This document shows, in pieces, positions 18,899-30,900 of a DNA stretch of 64,000 nucleotides. Where the stretch lies: assembly GCA_019448385.1 (NCBI GenBank), contig JAGTXO010000026.1:312501-376500 (forward strand), given 5' to 3'. Every line of letters starts with the position of its first letter. Positions within the stretch are counted from its first letter, which is position 1. This DNA comes from Diacronema lutheri. Taxonomy: Eukaryota; Haptophyta; Pavlovophyceae; Pavlovales; Pavlovaceae. A model generated the notes under the pieces. The model worked only from the letters and a program-made list of their open reading frames with translations, did not search any database and was not told the DNA's origin. The position numbers and the translations under genes were made by a program.

Positions 18899-21166
18899 CT
18901 AGATGCCGGGCGGCGGCGGCTGCCTGACGGGCACGGCGAGCTCGGTGACCATGGCCGTGAGCTCGTCCGCGTTGACCGTCTCGCGCTCGACGAGCTGCTC
19001 GACGAGCCGGTCGAGAAGCGCGCGGTTCTGCGAGAGCGTATCGCGGCACGTCTCGTACGCCTTGCGCACAATCTTCTCCACCTGCTCGTCGATGCGCTGC
19101 TGCGTGGCCTCGGACGCCATCTTGGGCGTGTTGAAGCCCGTGCCCATCGGCAGCTCCCACGCGGTCGAGCCGAGCGAGTCTGCGGCGAAGCCCCACTGTG
19201 TCACCATCTTGCGCGCAACATCCGCGACGCGCTGCAGGTCGGACGACGCGCCGGTCGTCACCTCGTCGCGCCCGTACACCAGCTCTTCGGCGACGCGCCC
19301 GCCGAGCGCGACCGCGAGCTGCCCGTCGAGGTACCTACGCGAGTAGAGCCCGGAGTCCTGCCGCTCGTCGGACGGGACGAAGAGCGTGAAGCCACCCGCG
19401 CCGTTGGAGCGCGGCACGATCGTCACCTTGCCAATCAGGTCGAACTGCGGCGTGAGCGCGCCCATGATCGCGTGCCCTGCCTCGTGGTAGGCGACGAGCC
19501 TCTTGCGCGCGTCCGACGCCATCCCCGTGCGCTGCTCGAGACCAACAGTCAACCGGTCGAGTGCGTATTCGACCTCCGCCATCGTGATCTCGCTCTTGTC
19601 GCGCCGCGCGGTCACGATGGCCGCCTCGTTGAGCAAGTTGGCCAACGCCGCGCCCGAGAAGCCCGTCGTCCTCGCAGCGACGCTCGCGAGTTCAACGTCC
19701 GTGCCGAGCGGCTTATCGCGCGCGTGCACCTTGAGGATCGCGAGGCGACCCGCGCGGTCGGGCAGATCGACGGGCACGCGACGGTCGAAGCGGCCGGGGC
19801 GAAGGAGCGCCGGGTCGAGCACGTCGGCGCGGTTGGTTGCAGCGAGCACGACGACGCCCGTCGCCTTGTCGAAGCCGTCCATCTCAGTCAGGATCTGGTT
19901 GAGTGTCTGCTCGCGCTCGTCGTTGCCGCCGCCCATGCCCGCACCGCCGCCGCGCGCCTTGCCGATCGCGTCGATCTCGTCAATGAAGATGATGCATGGC
20001 GCGGCGCCCTTCGCGCGCTCAAATAGGTCACGGATCCGGCTCGCGCCCACGCCGACGAACATCTCGACGAACTCCGAGCCCGACGCGGAGATGAAGGGAA
20101 CGCCCGCCTCGCCAGCGACCGCGCGCGCGAGCAGCGTCTGGCAGGGGAGCGGCGCGAGGAGGGGGCAGGGGCCGCGCGTCGCGTGGCGCGCGCGCGATGA
20201 GGTCGTGCGCGCAGCCGCGCGGTGCGCGCGCCGTCTGCCGGCGCGGCGCGCGCCGGCCGGCCGGCCGAGCCGTGCGCGTGCGCACACCTTGCCCGTGCCG
20301 GGCGGGCCTTCGAGCAGCACGCCGCGCGGCGCCCTGGCGCCGAGCGCGACAAACTTGCCGGGCCGCTTGAGGAAGTCGACGATCTCCCTCAGCTCGAGCT
20401 TGGAGCCATCGCAGCCCGCCACGTCCGCAAATGTGACACCCGTGTCCGGCGTGATCCGAAGCTCGGACTGCGCCTTGCGCAGCTGCGAGAGCATGCTGAG
20501 CGGATTGCCGCCGCCGCTGCTCGACGAGCTGCCACCGCTGCCCACCCGTAAGAAGAGCGCCCAAAAGAGAAGTAGCGGCAGCGCCACGCCCGCGAGAAAC
20601 TGCGCGAGCGGGTTCTCGTCCGGCACCGGCATGACCGAAAACGGCACGTTGCGCGCGGTGAGCAGGTCGACGAGCTGTGGATGGACGGCGGGGATGATCG
20701 CGACGCGTTGGGTCTCGTCCTTCACCGTTTGCATCCACAACTCGCGCTCCGTCGGCGAGAATTGTGCGCGCCGGACGCCGCCGCGCTTGATCTCGAGCAC
20801 AGCCTCCGAGTAGCCGACGCGAGAGATCGACGAGCCCGAGCTGCGCCACGTGAGGTGGAGCGCAAACGTCACCGCGAAGGCGGCGAGGAAGACCAACGGG
20901 CTGTACAGCCGCGCAAACCACCCGCCCCGCCGCCGCGGCTTCTTTTGCTGCGGCGGCGGTGAGTCCGAGCTGTTGGTCGACTGCATCGCGACGGACGCGC
21001 GCGCCGCCGCCACGGGGGCAAGATGCGCGCCGAGCGCGGGCGCGAGGGCGACCGCAAGCGGCGCCGGCGGCGCCACGCGTGGTCGTGCCACCCTGCGTAG
21101 CAGCGGCGGCGCATGTCCGCTCGGCGCGCGGAGCGCTCCGCAGACAGCCAAGGACAGCCACAACAT
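18899..21166 (-). CDS. ftsH: FtsH-type AAA metalloprotease, plastid-targeted
   Basis: Exons 21166-20288 and 20137-18899 give 705 residues. FtsH is a membrane-bound ATP-dependent zinc protease; in plastids it degrades damaged photosystem and thylakoid proteins. The start at 21166 gives a signal peptide ([17 protein letters not shown]) and a basic transit-like stretch, matching a complex plastid. An in-frame upstream ATG exists. Two membrane segments ([17 protein letters not shown] and [19 protein letters not shown]) flank the exposed loop. Next come Walker A GPPGTGK, Walker [33 protein letters not shown] and the protease zinc motif [11 protein letters not shown]. The only intron splits Walker A between GPPGTGK and TLLARA; it is 150 bp and lacks stops. 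It lies 35 bp from the divergent NAXE start. Confidence 0.92.
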
Positions 21167-21201
21167 TTTCTGCTGCGCCCACTCGAAAGTCCGTCCAGCG
21201 A

Positions 21202-22144
21202 ATGCGATCGTGCCGACGCCTACTCGCGTCGCTCGCCACACCGCTCGCGCTCGCGCTCTCGCGCGCGGCGTTCCTCCCCGGCGGGCGGGCGGCGAGCCCG
21301 GCTGCCTCCTGCTCGTCTATCGCCATGTCCGCCGCGCCCGTCCCGACGCTCACCGCCTCGGCCGCGGCCGCGCTCGACGAGGAGCTGATGGCGCAACCAG
21401 GCTTCAGCCTCGACCAGCTGATGGAGCTCGCGGGGCTGTCGGTCGCGGCGGCGATCGAGAAGCACTTCCCGCTCGAAACGCACCCGCGCGTCCTCGCCGT
21501 GTGCGGACCCGGCAACAATGGCGGTGATGGCCTCGTCGCCGCGCGCCACCTGACGCACTTCGGGCGCTCCGTGCGCGCCTCGGCCGTGCCGCCTGCTCCG
21601 CGGCCGCCGCTCCGCGCACCTCGCATCTTACGCGCGTACCTCACGCCTTGTGCGCGTGCCTCTGTCCTCGCGCCCGCCGCAGGTGACCGTCGTGCTGCCC
21701 AAGCGCAACACGAAGGTGCCCATTTTCAGCAACCTGGTCGTGCAGCTCGGCGCGCTCGGCGTGCCCGTGCTCGAGCAGCTGCCCGAGGGGTCCGAGCTCC
21801 CCGCTCGCTTCGACGTCATCCTCGACGCCATCTTCGGCTTCTCCTTTGCAGGCGACGCGCGCCCGCCCTTTGACGCGATCTTGGCCGCGCTGCGCGACAG
21901 CACGGTGCCAGTCGCATCCGTAGACGTTCCGTCCGGCTGGGACGTTGACAAGGGCGACGTGCGCGGCGTGGGCGTGCGCCCGGCCGTGCTCGTGTCGCTC
22001 ACCGCGCCCAAGGGGTGTGCCGCCGGCTTTGGCGGAGCGCATTACCTTGGCGGCCGATTCGTGCCGCCCGGCATCGCCGACAAGTACAGCTTGCGCTCCT
22101 TGCCCGCCTACCCCGGCGCAGAACAGGTTGTCAGGCTCAAGTAG
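21202..22144 (+). CDS. NAXE: NAD(P)H-hydrate epimerase (YjeF N-terminal domain)
   Basis: Exons 21202-21570 and 21683-22144 (GT-AG) join in phase to 276 residues. The enzyme interconverts R and S forms of hydrated NAD(P)H so that the dehydratase can repair them. Motifs: [13 protein letters not shown] near residue 73, [18 protein letters not shown] near 101 (the family's signature loop), VPVLEQLPE, then [15 protein letters not shown] with the catalytic aspartate region near 175, and [15 protein letters not shown] near 205. There is no C-terminal dehydratase domain, as in eukaryotic NAXE. The N-terminus ([20 protein letters not shown]) looks like a signal peptide with an A-x-F-like cleavage context, suggesting plastid targeting. 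It shares a 35-bp divergent promoter with FtsH and is convergent with the kinase fusion. Confidence 0.88.
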
Positions 22145-22221: not shown

Positions 22222-22970
22222 TCAGCTCATGCTCGCCGCCACCTTTTCAAGCATGCCGATCAGTGAGTCGATGCCGGTCAGGTAGCCGTCCTCGTCAGAG
22301 CCGGGTGTCCACGCCTCTCTGTGGGAGAGCACGCGGCCCGTGACGGCGTGCGACTTTGCAAAGTCGATCATCTTCACCTCGAGCGCGGCGGGCGACGCGA
22401 ACGAGAGCAGCTCCTCCGCCGTCGGGCTTGCAGACCTGAGGAGCTCGGCGTGCATGTCGTAATCGTACGTGATCAGAATCGACGAGCGCAAGAGCGCGAC
22501 GCGCGGGAAGAAGGACGAGCGCTCGAGCGCGGTGCGCATGCGCTCGAGCTTGATGAGGACAGCGCGGCACAGCACCTTGGACCCGCCGAAGAAGGCGCTG
22601 AAGCACGCGCGGATCTTGGCCTCGTCTCTGAGCTGCCGGAAGTTGAAATCAAGAGGCGTCGACTCCTTGCCGCCCGGCTTTGAAACGACCGCCGCGTCGA
22701 TGCGAAAGCCGAGCGTCGGGGTGGACGTGAGGCTGTCGCGGTAGGCGAGGTATCGCGCCTTTGTGATCCCGCCCACCTTGCGCTCGTCCGCGCGCGCTTC
22801 CTTTGTGCTGATCGAGTCCTGCGTGCGAAGCGGCGCGGCAGCGCCGCAGCCGCGGCAGGGTCCGGGGCGGGTGAGCACCGCGCCGGACCGTGCGCGCCGG
22901 GAGCAGCGTGCGCCGGGCGGACGCAACCATGGCGCAGCGTACACGACACTCCCACCTCGCGTTGCTCGCC

Positions 22971-23058
<88 letters not shown>

Positions 23059-25121
23059 TCGGGCGCGCGAGGCGCGCGCCGCCCGCGCGGGTGCGCTCGG
23101 GCGCTCGCCATCTTTTTGAGCAGGTCGTGTCGCGGGGTTTGGTCGGCAAGGTCCGACTCGAGGGTCGTGCGAATGCCCATCTTGATGTCCATCACGCACG
23201 GCGACGACATGCCCGCCGTCAGATCCTGCATCATCAGCCTGCACTCGTCACCCGCCCCGCCGCCTCCGCCCTCGCCGCCTTGCTCGACGGATTGGCGGCT
23301 TGGTCGAATCGAGGAGCGACCGAGCCGCTCGTGCTGCTCGTTGGCGCCCTGCATGCCGTACAGGATGGGCGCGTACGGCGCGATGTCCGACGCGGCGATC
23401 TGCGCGTAAAAATCATACTCTTCTCGCGTCGATCGCTTGACGAGGCTCGTGCCGCCCGCGCGCTCGATCGCACCAGCATGGCCGCTCGCCTGCAGCAGCG
23501 GCGTGATGGCAGTTTCAATATCCGAGTTGGAGACGGAGACAAGCGTCGTTGGCTGCTCGACGAGCGGAGCGCGGCCGTCCTGCGTCAGCCAGCCGTGCAG
23601 CCGCAGCTGGTTGAGCGTCATCCGCTTGGCAAGGTCCCGCGTGAGCAGCGCGCGCATCACCTCCTTGAGGGAGTCCGAGGTGGCGCGCGCGTGCTTGCCG
23701 TTGGTCGGCAGCTCGATGATGGGTGGTGCGTTCTGCGCGACGGCGCGGACGGAGGCATGCAGTCGGGGCGCAACGGGACGGCTGAGCGCCAAGAGACCGA
23801 GCAAAGCAAATGAGAAGAGAGAAAGCGAGAGCTGCCGTGCGATGCTCCAATCCGGGGGCTGAGGCGCGCCCCTCTTCCTCCCCCCCCCCCCCCCCCTCAC
23901 TTTCGACTACCGCCAACCTCTCGGCCCATCGACGGGCGCGCCTCGAGCTGCCCACAGCGTGCGCGCGTACCTTGATCAGCTCCATCACGAGCATCGCCGT
24001 GGGCGCCATGAAGGGCGCGTGCCCAAAGCACCACATGAAGAGCGTGACCCCCACCGCCCACATGTCACACGCCCTGCCGTCATACGTGCCTGCAAGCCCC
24101 ACTTGACACATCTCGGGAGCGAAGTAGGCGGGCGTGCCCGCCGTCTTCTGCGTCGCGTCAGCTGACGCATCGACGAAGAGCGCCGTGCCGAAGTCCGCAA
24201 TCTTAAGCATCCCGCCCGTCCTGCGCGAGTCGTCGTGGCGCCGCGGGCCGGTGGGGGGGGGGGGGGGGGGGGTGAACCGCAGCGCGGCGCAGCAGCCGGG
24301 AAGGGGCATGAGGCGGCCGGGCGGAACGCCCTGACAGCGCGCTCGCGTATTGCGCTCTGCACCTCGGGGTGTGCCCCCACGCATCTCCGCCTCCCCTACG
24401 CGCCGCGCGCACCGCGGCCGGCGCGCGGCGCTGCGCGGCCAGCGAGCGCGGGCGCGGCGCACAGACGCGCGGGCGCTGCCGGACGGGCGCGCGGCGCAGA
24501 CCGCGAGACGAGGAGGTTGTCCGGCTTGATATCGCGGTGCACGATCCCGTGCATGTGCAGGTACTCGAGGCCGAGCACGAGGTGGCGCATGTGCGACCAG
24601 ATCGTGGCCTCTTTGAGCACGGCCGCAGTCCCGTCCTTGCCGACCGCCTGCGACGCGCCGCCGTCTACAAACTCGAGGACGATGAAGACCTCGTCGGCCT
24701 TTGGATCGTCGATCACCTCGACCATCCCGACGCAGTTCGGGTGCCTGATCTTCTTCATCAGCGCAATCTCGGCTTTCACGGAGTCGAGCGCGGAGCCGAA
24801 CCGCCCCTGCCGCTGCCGGCGGAGCGCCGACCTTTTGAGCACCTTGACCGCGAACTTTTCGGCCCCCTCGGTTGCAAGGTACACATCGCCAAAGGAACCC
24901 TTGCCCAGCTGCTTGACCATCGTGTACTGGTTCACGTGCTGGATCTGCATGTCCTTGTCACGCTGCAGCTTCACGCTGAACGTCGACTGCGCCGTGAGGC
25001 GCGCCACCGTGGTGCGCCGGCTCTCGGCCGCGTCCGAGGTGTAGCGCGTGTTCCATGTGACGTGGCTGCTGTTGGCGCTGTACGACCCTCGCGTCGATTC
25101 ACCCACGCACTGGTTGCCCAT
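22222..25121 (-). CDS. Fusion: Ser/Thr protein kinase (CaMKK/SnRK-kinase-like) + inositol polyphosphate kinase
   Basis: Exons 25121-24502, 24220-23971, 23732-23109 and 22818-22222 join in phase to 696 residues. The N-terminus MGNQCVGES fits N-myristoylation plus palmitoylation, so membrane association is likely. The kinase spans residues about 66-370: Gly loop LGKGSFGDVY (72-81), lysine 93 in AVKVLK, HRDIKPDN near 192, DFG near 216, then GTPAYFAPEM. The C-lobe ends at RMTLNQLRLHGWL. The second enzyme follows: PCVMDIKMG near 468 is the inositol polyphosphate kinase signature (PxxxDxKxG), RSSILITYDYD is the ATP-contact SSLL-type block, and VKMIDFAKS near 650 the catalytic DFA. All key residues of both kinases are present. 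The third intron would use a GC donor (ATG then GCGAGC) and carries a hexamer repeat. Phase agreement at each junction supports one gene. Confidence 0.82.
22974..23058. repeat. GGGCGC hexamer repeat, about 14 units, intronic
   Basis: A perfect hexanucleotide array in the third intron of the kinase fusion gene, 50-135 bases downstream of the GC donor in the direction of transcription. Confidence 0.95.
23880..23896. repeat. Poly-C tract (poly-G in gene sense), intronic
   Basis: Seventeen C on the plus strand within the second intron of the minus-strand kinase fusion. It is the only intronic tract here that is G-rich in the sense orientation. Confidence 0.95.
24253..24272. repeat. Poly-G tract (poly-C in gene sense), intronic
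   Basis: Twenty bases in the first intron of the kinase fusion, about 30 bases before its acceptor at 24221-24222, where a polypyrimidine tract is expected. Confidence 0.95.
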
Positions 25122-25236
25122 GCCGCTCGCCGCCGCCCGAGCGGAACGTCACTACTCGAGGGGCGCAACGGCACGGCAGACTTTTCGCGACCCAACCTTT
25201 TGTCGGGGAAGACATCGGAAAGACAGCCAAGACAGA
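25122..25236. promoter_or_regulatory. Divergent promoter region
   Basis: 115 bp between the start codons of the kinase/inositol-kinase fusion and the TIR-like/LRR gene. No TATA box is seen. Any control element here would be shared. Confidence 0.35.
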
Positions 25237-27906
25237 ATGGGGCAAACGTGCTCGAGGCGACGCCCCGAGGACGTACGTGTGACTTTCCCGCCGTCGCCAA
25301 AGGCGGCGCCGGCCGCGCCGATCGTCGCGCCGAGCATCCCCGTGGCGCTCTCGCCGACTGCCCGGCCGGTGGGCGCGACGCCCTCGCTGGCCGCACGAAA
25401 GGGCACGCCGGCTGCACCGCGCGAGCCCGCGCCCGCGCCAGCTGCGGACGCTCCTCGGATCGAACGGCGTGCTGCGCCACGAGCAGCCGGTGCATCGCCT
25501 GCTGGGGGGCCGAGCCAGGCGTTGGCACCAACGGCGGCCGCGGCATCGAGTGCGGTCATGGTGGCGTCGCCGGCCGAGCCTCGCGCGGCCGCGCCCGCCC
25601 AGCAGCTCACGCTTAAGCCCGCGGCCGCCGCGGCGCCCGCGGCGCTCGCGGCGCCCGCGGCGCCCGCGGCGCCCGAGTCCGCGCGCGCGGACGAGGTGCC
25701 TCAGCTCGCCTTCGGCCGGCTACGTGCGCAAACGGCGGGCTGCTCCATCGACGCGGCGAGCGAGCGCGCGATCACGCTGCGCCAGCTGCGCCATGTACTC
25801 GCCCTCGCCGCGGAGCTGTGCGTCACAGAGCGGTGGGCGTCGGCCGACCCGGCGCGGCGCGGCGAGCCTATTGCGCCCGACGCACTCACGGTGGACGAGC
25901 TTTGCCGCGCGCTGCTGCCCGGCGCGACGGACGGCGGGCGGCGTTCGCTCGTCGAAGCCCTCGCCACGAGCCCGCAGCCCACTGAGTACTTTGTCGTCTC
26001 GTCGTACGCTGACTCGTGCGCTGAGCTCCTCTCGGCGCTCGAGCAGCACGCGCGCGATCGCGCGCTCGGCGACGGCGACGCGCTCTATTGGGTGTCGGCG
26101 TTCGCGCTGCGCGAGGCGGAACGCGGGTTGAGTGGCGCGAGCGCGCCCTTCCGCACCGCGCTCGTCCGCTCGCGCGGTGTCGTCTGCCTCCTCGGACGCA
26201 AGGCGGCCGTGCTCTCGCGCGCATGGCCTGCGCTCGAGCTCGGCCTCGCGCTCGGCGTGCTCACGCTCGACGAGCCGGCCGGCAAGGCAGCGGCGCGCGC
26301 GGGCTCGCGCGCCGGGCGGTTCGCGAGCTTTGCGGGCGCGCGCACTTTTGACGTTTACGCGACCGCGCCCACCGCCGCCGCAGGCGCGGCGGGCGCGGGC
26401 GAGGCCGCGGCGGGCGCGGGCGCGGCGAGCGTGGGCGCGCTCGGCACCCTCCCTCGCACGGTCGGTTTGCTCGACGACCTTGACGAACGGTTGAGCGACG
26501 AGGCGCTCGCGGCGAAATGCAGTCGCGAGAGCGCATTCCCTGGGAAAGTGGCGCACCGCGCTTTGTCAACGAGTGTGCGAGACTCGGCGTATGACCTGCG
26601 GCTCATCGGCAAGGAGGCGGCGGGCAGGGAGGACGCGCTCGATGCGACCGTGCGCGCGGCGTTTGGGCTCGCGGTCCTGCCGCTCCTCGCGCGCGGCGGT
26701 CCGGGCAGCGACATGCTGCCGCGCTACCTCGCCGCTCTCCGCTCCTCACACCTCCGCCGCGCGACCCTCTGTCTGCACCGCGCGCACGCGGCCGCGCCGG
26801 CCGCGCCGGCCGCGCGTGCGAGCGGCAGCTCCGAGCCGCTCGAGGTGCAGCTCGCCGACTGCCTGCCAAAGACGCTCGAGGTACTCGTGGCGCGCGCGCT
26901 CGACGCGGACACGATGGCGCCGGCGCTCGCGCGCCTGTTGAGTGCACCCAAGTCCAACCTCACCATCCTCGACGTGAGCTGCTGCTCGCTCAGCGCGCAC
27001 GGCGCCGCGCTGCTCGGCGGCGCGCTCGGTGCAAGCCGCACGCTCGCGTCGCTCTCGCTGCGCGCCAACCCGCCGCTCGAGCCGCATGGCGTGCGCGCAA
27101 TTGGCGACGGTGTGCGCGCGTGCAAGACGCTCTTGGCGCTTCACCTCGACGGCACGCGCGTCGGACGCGCTGGCGCGGAGGCGCTCGCGAGCGCGCTGCG
27201 CGCCGGCTGCGCGCTCGCCGAACTGCGCATGGCCGCGTGCGACCTGGCGGACGACGGCGCGGCCGCGCTCTGCGACGCGCTCAAGCGCACGCCCACGCTG
27301 CACACGCTCGGCCTCGAACGCAACGGCCTCGCGAGAGCCGCGCCTGACGCGCTTGCAGCGCTTCTCGCGGTCAAGCGCTGCGCGCTGCGCGAGCTGCTCC
27401 TCTCGCACAACCAGATCGGCGAGCTGGGCGCCGACGCGCTCGGCGGCGCGCTCGGCGCCAACGCGTCTCTCGAGACTCTGGACCTCAGCTCCAACCCCCT
27501 CGGCGACTCAGGCCTCGTCGTCCTCGCCTCGCGACTCGGCGGGAACGGAGCGCTCACCGACCTCCGGTTGAGCAACGTGCAGTGCGACGACGCGGGCGCC
27601 GCAGCGCTCGGGCACGCGCTCGGCTCGAACCGCACTATCCGCTCCCTCGACATCTCGTCAAACCCGATTGGTGACGCGGGCGCGCGCGCGCTCGCAAAGG
27701 GCCTCGAGGACAACGTGGCGCTCGTTGTGCTCGATCTGCGCGCGACGCTCCTCGCCGATCAGGGCGCCATCGCCGTCGTCGACGCGCTCGAGGCGCACGC
27801 CCTCGAGGACGGGGACGGGCAGCGCGTGAAGAGGCGGATTGCGCTCGCACGCAGCCAGATCACGGCGGACTTGCCGCGGCTGCTCAACTCGAGCGTTCAC
27901 GTGTAA
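25237..27906 (+). CDS. N-myristoylated TIR-like / leucine-rich-repeat protein
   Basis: A single exon of 889 residues from the ATG at 25237, chosen because MGQTCSRRR is a strong myristoylation/palmitoylation signal. Residues 20-160 are alanine/proline-rich and disordered. Residues about 249-350 (TEYFVVSSYADSCAELLSAL, GDALYWVSAFALRE, GVVCLLGRKAAVLSRAWPAL) resemble the TIR-like/HET-like domain that algae couple to repeat arrays. There the family has FVSHSW, YWVD and RAWCLWE, and several of those residues are altered here. Residues about 566-865 are RNI/NLRC3-type leucine-rich repeats of 28 residues (LDLSSNPLGDSGLVVLASRL, LDISSNPIGDAGARALAKGL). No nucleotide-binding NACHT or NB-ARC motif is seen between them. 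An immune-receptor-like or scaffold role is inference. It starts 115 bp from the kinase/inositol-kinase fusion. Confidence 0.75.
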   Translation: MGQTCSRRRPEDVRVTFPPSPKAAPAAPIVAPSIPVALSPTARPVGATPSLAARKGTPAAPREPAPAPAADAPRIERRAAPRAAGASPAGGPSQALAPTAAAASSAVMVASPAEPRAAAPAQQLTLKPAAAAAPAALAAPAAPAAPESARADEVPQLAFGRLRAQTAGCSIDAASERAITLRQLRHVLALAAELCVTERWASADPARRGEPIAPDALTVDELCRALLPGATDGGRRSLVEALATSPQPTEYFVVSSYADSCAELLSALEQHARDRALGDGDALYWVSAFALREAERGLSGASAPFRTALVRSRGVVCLLGRKAAVLSRAWPALELGLALGVLTLDEPAGKAAARAGSRAGRFASFAGARTFDVYATAPTAAAGAAGAGEAAAGAGAASVGALGTLPRTVGLLDDLDERLSDEALAAKCSRESAFPGKVAHRALSTSVRDSAYDLRLIGKEAAGREDALDATVRAAFGLAVLPLLARGGPGSDMLPRYLAALRSSHLRRATLCLHRAHAAAPAAPAARASGSSEPLEVQLADCLPKTLEVLVARALDADTMAPALARLLSAPKSNLTILDVSCCSLSAHGAALLGGALGASRTLASLSLRANPPLEPHGVRAIGDGVRACKTLLALHLDGTRVGRAGAEALASALRAGCALAELRMAACDLADDGAAALCDALKRTPTLHTLGLERNGLARAAPDALAALLAVKRCALRELLLSHNQIGELGADALGGALGANASLETLDLSSNPLGDSGLVVLASRLGGNGALTDLRLSNVQCDDAGAAALGHALGSNRTIRSLDISSNPIGDAGARALAKGLEDNVALVVLDLRATLLADQGAIAVVDALEAHALEDGDGQRVKRRIALARSQITADLPRLLNSSVHV

Positions 27907-27953: not shown

Positions 27954-30900
27954 TCAACCGCGCCTGCTGTCGTAGCCGCCTTCGTCCGCGTGCTCGGCGC
28001 GGCCCGCGTGCGCCACGCGCCACTGCATGACGCACGTGTCCGCCGCGCCGATCGTATAGACACGCGCATCGTCGCACGCCCACGCGACGCCGCCGACGTG
28101 CCCGGCGTGCGCGATGCCCACCCTGCACGCGCTCCCCTCGACGGAGGTGGGGTGTGAGAAGAGGTTGACTTTGCCAAACTCATCCGCAGAAACGAGCAGT
28201 CTGCCCGAGCGAGAGCGCGATACCGCGTGCACGTCCGTGCCGTCGGAGAGCTGCGACAGGATGCCCGCCACCGGCCAGCCGATCGGCGAGCTCCACGTCG
28301 CCCACTCCACGTCCGCCACCTGCACCGCGTCGAGAACCTGCGAGAGCGCGCGCGCACGGGCGCACGGCGCGCGCGCGTGGGCGGTGCGACGCCACGCGGA
28401 GGTCGCGGCGGGGCCTGGCGCGAGCGCGGCGCGGCGCGGCCGGTGCGCGCGCACCCGCTCGCCGCCATTGTGCACGTCCCACCACGCGAGGAGCATGGCT
28501 GTGCAGCTTGACTGGAGAAGCTGACTGTCTGCAGACCAGTCGAGCGAGCGGACAGCCGCGGCGTGCGCGCCGAGCAGCCGGAGTGGCTCGGGCGCGCCCT
28601 CGACGAACGCGGCGTGGATCTCGATGAGCCCATCCGCGTACCCAACCGCCAGGAGCGACGAATCGGGCGAGAAGGCGAGCGACGCCACCTCGCCGGCGTG
28701 CGGCGTGCCAATCTGCGCGGGCAGCTCAGTCAGTGACTCAGGCTCGAGCAGCAGCGTCCGGCCGTCCTCGCACCCGACGGCGAGCAGCGACGCGTCCGGC
28801 GCCCACGCGAGCGCGAGCGGCGGTGCGCGCACTCGGCGCATGCAGACCATTGCGCGACGCTCCGCGTCCCACACGCGCACCTGCCCGCCGCAGCGCGGCC
28901 GGGGGGCGGGGGGGGGGGGGGGGGGGGGGGGGGGCGGGGGGGGAGGGGGGGGGGGGGATGGGAGGGGGGGGATGGGAGGTGGGGGGGCATGGGAGGGGGT
29001 GGGCAGCGCGGCCGGCGGGCGGAAGGGGATGGGAGGGGGCGGGGAGGCGGGTCGTCGTCACGCGCGCGCGTGGCGCACGCCGGTCGCGCGCTGCCGGGGC
29101 CCAATGTCGGTCTCGACGCGCGTGCGCGCGCGCGCCACGCGGTGTGCGCGCCAAAGAGGCGGCGCGCGCGCACAGTGCAATCGTCACCGGCAGTGGCAAA
29201 AATGGCGGGAACGAGCGGGTGCGCGGCAAGCCCCCACAGCTCCGAGCGCGCGCCGTCGCCGAGCGTCGGCGCGGGCGTGCGCAGCATCGCGTGCCCCTGC
29301 AGGAGCAACCGACAGTGTGGCCTACTTCCACCCAACTGCCACAACTCGCCCGCACGCGTAACGATCAGTAACGCCCCGCGCGCGAAGGCGAGCGCGCGCA
29401 CGCACGGCGCGTCTCCGCTCAGCAGGCAGCGAAGGCGGCCATACTCGTCGGTGAGGCTCGTCGCGAGCTGCCCGAGCTCGACCGGCCGCGCGGCGCGCGC
29501 GTCGGCGGGCGAGCCATCGGCAGGCCAAAGCATGAGCCGACCGCCCCGCCCGCCCGCGGCAATGCCCTCCGCCGACGCGGCAATGGCGAAGATGGGCCAC
29601 TGCGAGTGGAGGCGGAGCGAGCGGACGACCTCACACGCGCTGCCCCACTCCAGAACCATCCCGCGGCTCGTGCCCGTAACGAGCGCGCCGCTCCCCGGCA
29701 GCCATGCTGCGCACAAGACCGTCTGCACGCCCACCGCGCCAAACTGCCCCTTGCGCGCCGTCCACCCGCCGCCGCCACCGCCACCACCGCCGACGAGCGG
29801 CCTGCTCCAAAAGCGCACGTGCCTCTGCCCGTACGAGACCATGCTCGACTCACGCGGCGAGAAGGCGAGGCCGAGCACTGCGCCCGCGCCGCCGCGCGTG
29901 AGCGAGAGGAGGGTACCCGCGCGCCAGTTCCACAGCGCGATCGTGCGCGCCGCCGACACGTCGGCGCTCGCGAGCAGGCTACCGTCGGGCGAGAAGGCGA
30001 GCGCGCCCACGCCGTCGCGCTGCCCGCCGCTGAGCAACGCCTCGGTCGAGAGCGATCGGCTCGACCAGACGTGGATCGCCGCTCGCTCGCTCACCTCCCC
30101 CGTCGCGACGAGCACGCCGCCCGGGTGCATCGCGATCGCGAGCACCTCAGCGCCATGCTGCGCATAGAAGCGCTGCGATGGCGGCGGAGGCGTGCGCGCG
30201 CCGCCGGCCGCGTTCGCGTCCGCGCCCTCCTCGCCCGCCGCCATCACGACGGCGACGGAGCCGCACGGGAAGACGAGCTCGCCCGACGCGCTCACGTGCA
30301 GGTGCTCGCGCGCGCCGTGCGCGCGCACGCCGTGCACAAACTCGAGACGCAGCTGCTCGGCCGGCGGCGCGAGCGCGGCCGCGCCCGCGCGGCGCGCGTG
30401 CTCGGGCGGCGGCGCGAGCGCAAGCCACGGACGCGCCCCGTCCATTGCACCGGGCGCGCGCAGCTGCGTCTCGAGCTCGAGGCGGCGGAGCAACTCGACG
30501 CCGCCGTCAAGGGACGCGACCGACCCCGCCGACGCGCCGCCGCCCACGCCGAGCGCGCGCGAGAGCGGCGCGACCGACTCGTCGTGCCCGGCGGCCGCGG
30601 CCCAGAAGGGTTGCGCGCGCGCTCGCGCCGCCTGCGCGCCCGACGCGGCGAGCAGCAGCTCGCGCTTCACGCCAACGGGCGCGCGTGCGCGCCGCCGGCG
30701 CGCTGACGCGGCGGGCGCGCCGAACGCGCCCGCCGCGAGCGGCGCAAGATCCGTCGCCACGTCCTCGTCCTCGGCCGACTCGGCGCCGGGCGCGACGTGC
30801 GCGCCCGCGTCGGCAGTGTACCGCCACTGCAGCAGCGCGCCGTCGGCGCCGCCCGTGGAGAGCAGCGCGTTATCGTCGTGCGTGAAGCGCACCATAGACC

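Follow-up and report, generated by a model that had tools for sequence, protein, structure and literature searches.

Does a single gene of the haptophyte Diacronema lutheri encode both a protein kinase and an inositol polyphosphate kinase (IPK) and, if so, to which kinds do the two kinases belong? The question was raised by a sequence-only reading of the window, a 64,000-nucleotide stretch of the D. lutheri genome, in which four exons were joined in phase on the minus strand. The reading preferred here, with a probability of roughly 0.7 judged from sequence, is that one gene specifies a bifunctional signalling enzyme in which a CaMKK-like Ser/Thr kinase is directly followed by an IP3 3-kinase (IP3-3K).

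Gene structure and surroundings

The four-exon structure proposed earlier was recovered in phase, giving 696 codons and a TGA stop on the minus strand from 25121 to 22222. All coordinates of the gene below refer to this strand. Exon 1 (24502–25121) encodes the MGNQC start, the N-terminal segment and the kinase N-lobe up to HRDIKPDNLLVS (residues 1–206 plus two bases); the stop-to-stop ORF around it spans 24396–25148, with nine sense codons upstream of the ATG. Intron 1 (24221–24501; 281 bp, GT–AG) contains a poly-C tract and would yield a 241-residue product if retained. Exon 2 (23971–24220) runs from LKIADFG through APEM to LIK, ending at residue 290, and is followed by intron 2 (23733–23970; 238 bp, GT–AG), retention of which would give a 441-residue out-of-frame product. 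Exon 3 (23109–23732; residues 291–498) encodes the end of the kinase C-lobe, a CaMKK-like tail, a linker and the IPK fold up to and including PCVMDIKMG. Intron 3 (22819–23108; 290 bp) is of the GC–AG type, and its retention would give a frame-shifted product of 709 residues. Exon 4 (22222–22818; residues 499–696 and the stop) encodes the remainder of the IPK domain with SSIL, MIDFAK and DEDGYLTGIDSLIGML.

The GC donor of intron 3 was checked for alternatives. A single GT dinucleotide is present in 23160–23000, at 23157. With the GC–AG join, the distance from KKM to [V/I]TK.RY is 17 residues, the same as in human ITPKA, which supports this splice. Intron 3, which lies within the IPK-coding part, also holds a perfect array of the hexamer GCGCGG (14.7 copies, 22971–23058).

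Pfam matches to both families on the 696-residue product were complete: Pkinase at residues 66–339 (profile positions 1–263 of 263, E = 8.1e-54) and IPK at 456–689 (2–190 of 190, E = 1.7e-30). When single exons were searched, the start of the IPK match was found with exon 3 alone and the rest with exon 4 alone. The protein kinase domain (23586–24926) extends across introns 1 and 2 and retains K93, E118, D197 and D216. It is followed in the same coding frame by the Met-free linker TQDGRAPLVEQPTTLVSVSNSDIETAITPLL (23493–23585; residues 340–370) and by the IP3 3-kinase-type domain (22246–23492; about residues 371–689), which extends across intron 3. All of the motifs listed in the earlier reading (LGKGSFGDVY, HRDIKPDN, DFG, APEM, PCVMDIKMG, SSIL and DFA) are in the product. 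An AlphaFold2 model of exon 4 alone, calculated without an alignment, had a mean pLDDT of 42.3 and was not used.

The GC content of the window is 66–80% in 2 kb steps, mostly above 70%, and its genes are spliced; for the D. lutheri nuclear genome a value of 73.25% is given in the text of PMC8379373. On the 5′ side of the fusion gene lies an LRR gene in divergent orientation, the two start codons being 115 bp apart (25122–25236). The ORF of the LRR gene (25237–27906, plus strand, ATG at 25237; 889 residues) has C-terminal LRRs of the ribonuclease-inhibitor/NLR type and starts with MGQTCSRRRP; this and the MGNQCVGES start of the fusion (minus strand) are both possible acylation starts. The 115 bp gap, together with the possible acylation starts of both proteins, hints that the two genes share a promoter and perhaps that their products share a membrane site. 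The middle of the LRR ORF (SSYADSC … RSRGVVCLLGRKAAVLSRAWPALELGLAL) appears TIR-like by eye; no TIR family was among its Pfam matches at E values up to 0.001. Farther on, an ORF at 27954–29057 (minus strand) matches the second β-propeller of the EML (echinoderm microtubule-associated protein) type (E = 1.1e-66). On the 3′ side lies a YjeF_N (NAD(P)HX epimerase-type) gene in convergent orientation at about 20854–22144 (plus strand), the ORF of which ends 78 bp from the fusion gene; the profile match is divided between two ORFs, as would be expected of an intron. An ORF for an FtsH-like AAA/M41 protease (18899–21316, minus strand) overlaps the YjeF_N ORFs on the opposite strand. A sigma-70-type scan returned no promoters and four terminator-like sites, this bacterial model being uninformative for a eukaryote, and searches with Rfam (gathering threshold) and ARAGORN found nothing.

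Identity of the two halves

Among solved kinases, taken as the best 60 of 2635 matches to PDB sequences, the kinase half is nearest in sequence to CaMKK2 (179 bits), followed by CaMKK1 (154 bits) and, as the best non-CaMKK, STK11 (125 bits). The top match was the CaMKK2 chain 6cmj (residues 62–348, E = 9.2e-52). The similarity extends into the tail, which reads LHGWLTQDGRAPLVEQPTTLVS here and LHPWVTRHGAEPLPSEDENCTLVE in 6cmj. A hallmark of CaMKKs is an Arg-Pro-rich insert between β3 and αC; it is absent from the fusion kinase, which has just KRSALRRQRQGRFGSALDSV at this site. CaMKK2 also carries a calmodulin-binding peptide after the kinase domain, whereas the fusion has the IP3-3K-type domain there, and no counterpart of the CaMKK calmodulin peptide (chain 1ckk) is visible in the linker. 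Because it is without the insert and the peptide, the kinase half is termed CaMKK-like rather than a CaMKK proper.

The IPK half is, as judged by sequence, of the IP3-3K type and not IP6K- or IPMK-like. All seven distinct PDB sequences matched at E values up to 0.01 were IP3-3Ks (best E = 5.6e-36). Six more matches appeared at E values up to 10, four of them IPMKs at 11.2–12.0 bits (E = 0.87–1.6) and the other two L11 ribosomal proteins, chance matches with scores of 14.6 bits; no IP6K was among the PDB matches at this threshold. Subtype HMMs scored 133.7 bits for IP3K, 32.9 for IP6K and 11.2 for IPMK, these being small models (two sequences each for IP3K and IP6K, one for IPMK) drawn from two IP3Ks, one IPMK, an Entamoeba IP6K and a fragment of human IP6K1, with algal IPKs absent. 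The best of 200 shuffled sequences reached 5.1 bits with the IP3K model. DxKxG and the following LG[F/V]R or IGF are 57 residues apart here, 61 in both ITPKA and ITPKB, and 25–27 in IPMK and two IP6Ks; the fusion IPK carries a long IP-lobe insert, and the IPMK and IP6K sequences compared are without it. Of the subtype-specific columns, 34 of 103 IP3K-only positions were matched versus 11 of 64 of the IPMK/IP6K type.

Identity to ITPKA (9qgk) is 38% and to ITPKB (2aqx) 35%, and the IP-lobe insert and the aligned substrate and ATP residues are common to all three. The two animal enzymes differ in not being fused to a kinase, and the fusion has extra stretches without counterpart at residues 418–438, 446–454 and 623–644 and scant space for an N-terminal calmodulin-binding segment. 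IPMK (6m88) and IP6K (4o4c) share the IPK superfamily and the PxxxDxKxG and DFA motifs with the fusion, but show 23–25% identity to it, the short DxKxG-to-LG spacing and weak scores.

It is unlikely that the IPK half of the single protein is instead a multikinase or an IP6K, with higher inositol phosphates or inositol pyrophosphates as its products. In a survey, IPKs are described as promiscuous and position assignments derive mostly from enzymes of mammals and yeast (PMC8024741). The domain is picked up by the IP6K model, and some IPMK/IP6K-type columns match, but the subtype scores and the IP-lobe insert point to IP3-3K. The half is not closest to IP6K, at 32.9 versus 133.7 bits and with a spacing of 57 versus 27. 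An IP6K or IPMK assignment was therefore rejected on the subtype scores, the PDB matches and the DxKxG spacing (57 versus 25–27). The earlier proposal that the protein couples phosphorylation to inositol pyrophosphate synthesis was not borne out, the IP6K and IPMK scores being far lower: with an IPK half of the IP3-3K type such synthesis is unlikely, and in calcium signalling the enzyme would probably convert IP3 into IP4.

The ITPKA residues that contact IP3 include Arg and Lys residues of the IP-lobe insert. K389, D472, K474, R491, R525, K545 and D650 of the fusion align with K209, D262, K264, R285, R319, K336 and D416 of ITPKA, the position of K336 being alignment-dependent (S in one alignment, K in another). 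ITPKA M288, Y289 and Q317 are replaced by L, L and A. The IPK N-lobe (residues 371–455), with K389 as the presumed ATP lysine, contributed just 6.4 bits to the PDB matches and was placed by a weaker alignment. The changed substrate-pocket positions could indicate that catalysis is confined to one half, the other being a pseudo-enzyme or scaffold; this is a distinctly unlikely account, as the canonical catalytic residues that were checked are present in both cores. Each half is predicted to be active.

Continuity of the coding sequence across the join

The preferred reading, two kinases in one chain, depends on the join between them. In exon 3 a single reading frame passes from the end of the kinase C-lobe (RMTLNQLRLHGWLT) through the linker into the IPK fold as far as PCVMDIKMG. 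Since this exon alone reaches from the kinase end across the linker into the IPK domain, the fusion is independent of any splice. A start codon and promoter in exon 3 had been named in the sequence-only reading as a sign of two separate genes. The in-frame Met residues around the join are 316 and 328, both within the kinase, and then 417, beyond K389; the stretch from the kinase end to K389 is free of both stops and Met. A clean start of a free-standing IPK is ruled out by these positions.

Codon preference was scored after training on exons 1, 2 and 4 together with the FtsH-like gene nearby, 1194 codons in all. Exon 3 was kept out of the training set and alone provides an out-of-sample test. 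In windows of 25 codons its frame had the highest score throughout 23755–23096, a stretch that takes in the linker; the linker window (23575–23501) scored +6.5 versus −19.8 and −20.1 in the other frames. The weak windows of exon 3 scored 0.0 (23485–23411) and −1.9 (23350–23276), with the other two frames lower still. Scores in this frame were near zero in part of intron 2 (+0.7 and +0.2 in two windows within 23890–23771). The five windows lying entirely within intron 3 were negative in all three frames, and downstream of this intron the exon 4 frame was positive up to the stop.

That two adjacent genes, one for a kinase and one for an IPK, were merged by the earlier exon joins is very improbable and was rejected. 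In favour of two genes, the kinase-side product would be cut short, at 241 or 441 residues, if intron 1 or intron 2 respectively were retained, and M316 or M328 is a conceivable start for an IPK-side product. The join, however, sits within exon 3, away from the splices; neither stop nor Met separates the kinase end from K389, and codon preference keeps to one frame. An assembly chimera that joined unrelated reads within exon 3 is scarcely credible and was likewise rejected: simple repeats lie close by in intron 3, but a misjoin would have had to preserve both frame and codon preference, which are continuous through exon 3, and within the exon no tandem repeat reached a score of 50. At the level of sequence, a single-gene fusion with kinase and IPK in one polypeptide is thus confirmed, and the earlier claim of a CaMKK-like kinase ahead of a complete IPK is upheld by the Pfam matches, the codon preference and the Met positions.

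Proposed function and significance

The N-terminus of the product, MGNQCV, has Gly2 and Cys5, and Val6 falls outside the strict PROSITE myristoylation pattern MGxxx[STAGCN]. We take MGNQCVGES to resemble the N-termini of plant CDPKs. A membrane anchor through the MGNQC start is predicted and plausible. The acylated N-terminus would hold the fusion at the membrane where phospholipase C makes IP3. In animals, IP3 3-kinase removes this calcium-releasing messenger. The C-terminal half would phosphorylate IP3 to IP4 and so end IP3-driven calcium release, while the N-terminal half would phosphorylate the activation loops of downstream CaMK/SnRK/AMPK-type kinases. Through the covalent tie both outputs would be co-localized and equal in number.

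Vertebrate IP3-3Ks have a calmodulin-binding segment just before the catalytic core. Mammalian ITPKs are described as calmodulin-stimulated and nematode members as being without this segment (PMC9694693). In the fusion, the linker between the domains is 31 residues long and no calmodulin-binding segment of either parent family was seen in it. None of the eight best basic amphipathic 18-mers lies wholly within the linker; apart from residues 39–56, which have a low helical moment, all fall inside a domain or at its boundary. The 696-residue product contains no IQ motif, and no EF-hand was among its Pfam matches at E values up to 1; control by calcium thus found no support. As only a short CaMKK-like tail is left at the join, mutual regulation is possible: each domain may control the other in place of calmodulin, or another input may replace calmodulin. 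A partial likeness is found in mammals, where AMPK is phosphorylated by CaMKK-β and an inositol phosphate kinase is likewise physically tied to this CaMKK-fed pathway; as described in PMC3499638, that tie is non-covalent and involves IPMK rather than an IP3-3K.

Relatives were sought in prokaryotic and viral contig collections. The prokaryotic scan with the fusion returned 23 stretches, two of which were relatives, both planctomycete MAG loci matching the kinase half only (residues 60–299 and 60–317). The viral scans returned one stretch matching a pattern with the fusion and 48 with a three-row IP3K-type alignment, with no relatives in either case. No fused relative was found in these collections; being built on short peptide patterns, the scans reach mainly close relatives. 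No kinase–IPK fusion was found among the matches listed in the open-licence literature searched, and the main text of a Phytophthora infestans kinome study dealing with unusual accessory domains contains neither 'inositol' nor 'CaMKK' (PMC3019232). The architecture is undescribed in this sense and may yet be present in deposited eukaryotic proteomes.

What is new here, by sequence comparison, is the unusual pairing of two known kinds, a CaMKK-like kinase and an IP3-3K-type domain. Gene fusions point to functional coupling. We propose, tentatively and with somewhat less than even confidence, an IP3 3-kinase outside the animals with a CaMKK-like kinase as a permanent part of the same chain. A single molecule would then both remove IP3 and start a kinase cascade, and its two domains would control each other in place of calmodulin, at the point where both parent families bear calmodulin-binding peptides. 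IPK names need care, since 'IP3K' is also applied to plant and fungal IPKs in the text of PMC11000326, and the oomycete 'ITP3K' homologues are described as more IPMK-like (PMC9694693). The survey text, which counts five IPK genes in Emiliania huxleyi, dates the origin of IP3-3K to a late stage, within the metazoans (PMC8024741). An IP3-3K-type domain in an alga challenges the origin given there; if the assignment is true, the subtype would be older than animals or would have been transferred. IP3 receptors are reported from green and brown algae and as not found in diatoms in the relevant text of PMC11085791. In a lineage with little-mapped IP3 signalling, a CaMKK-like/IP3-3K fusion would tie removal of the calcium messenger to a kinase cascade.
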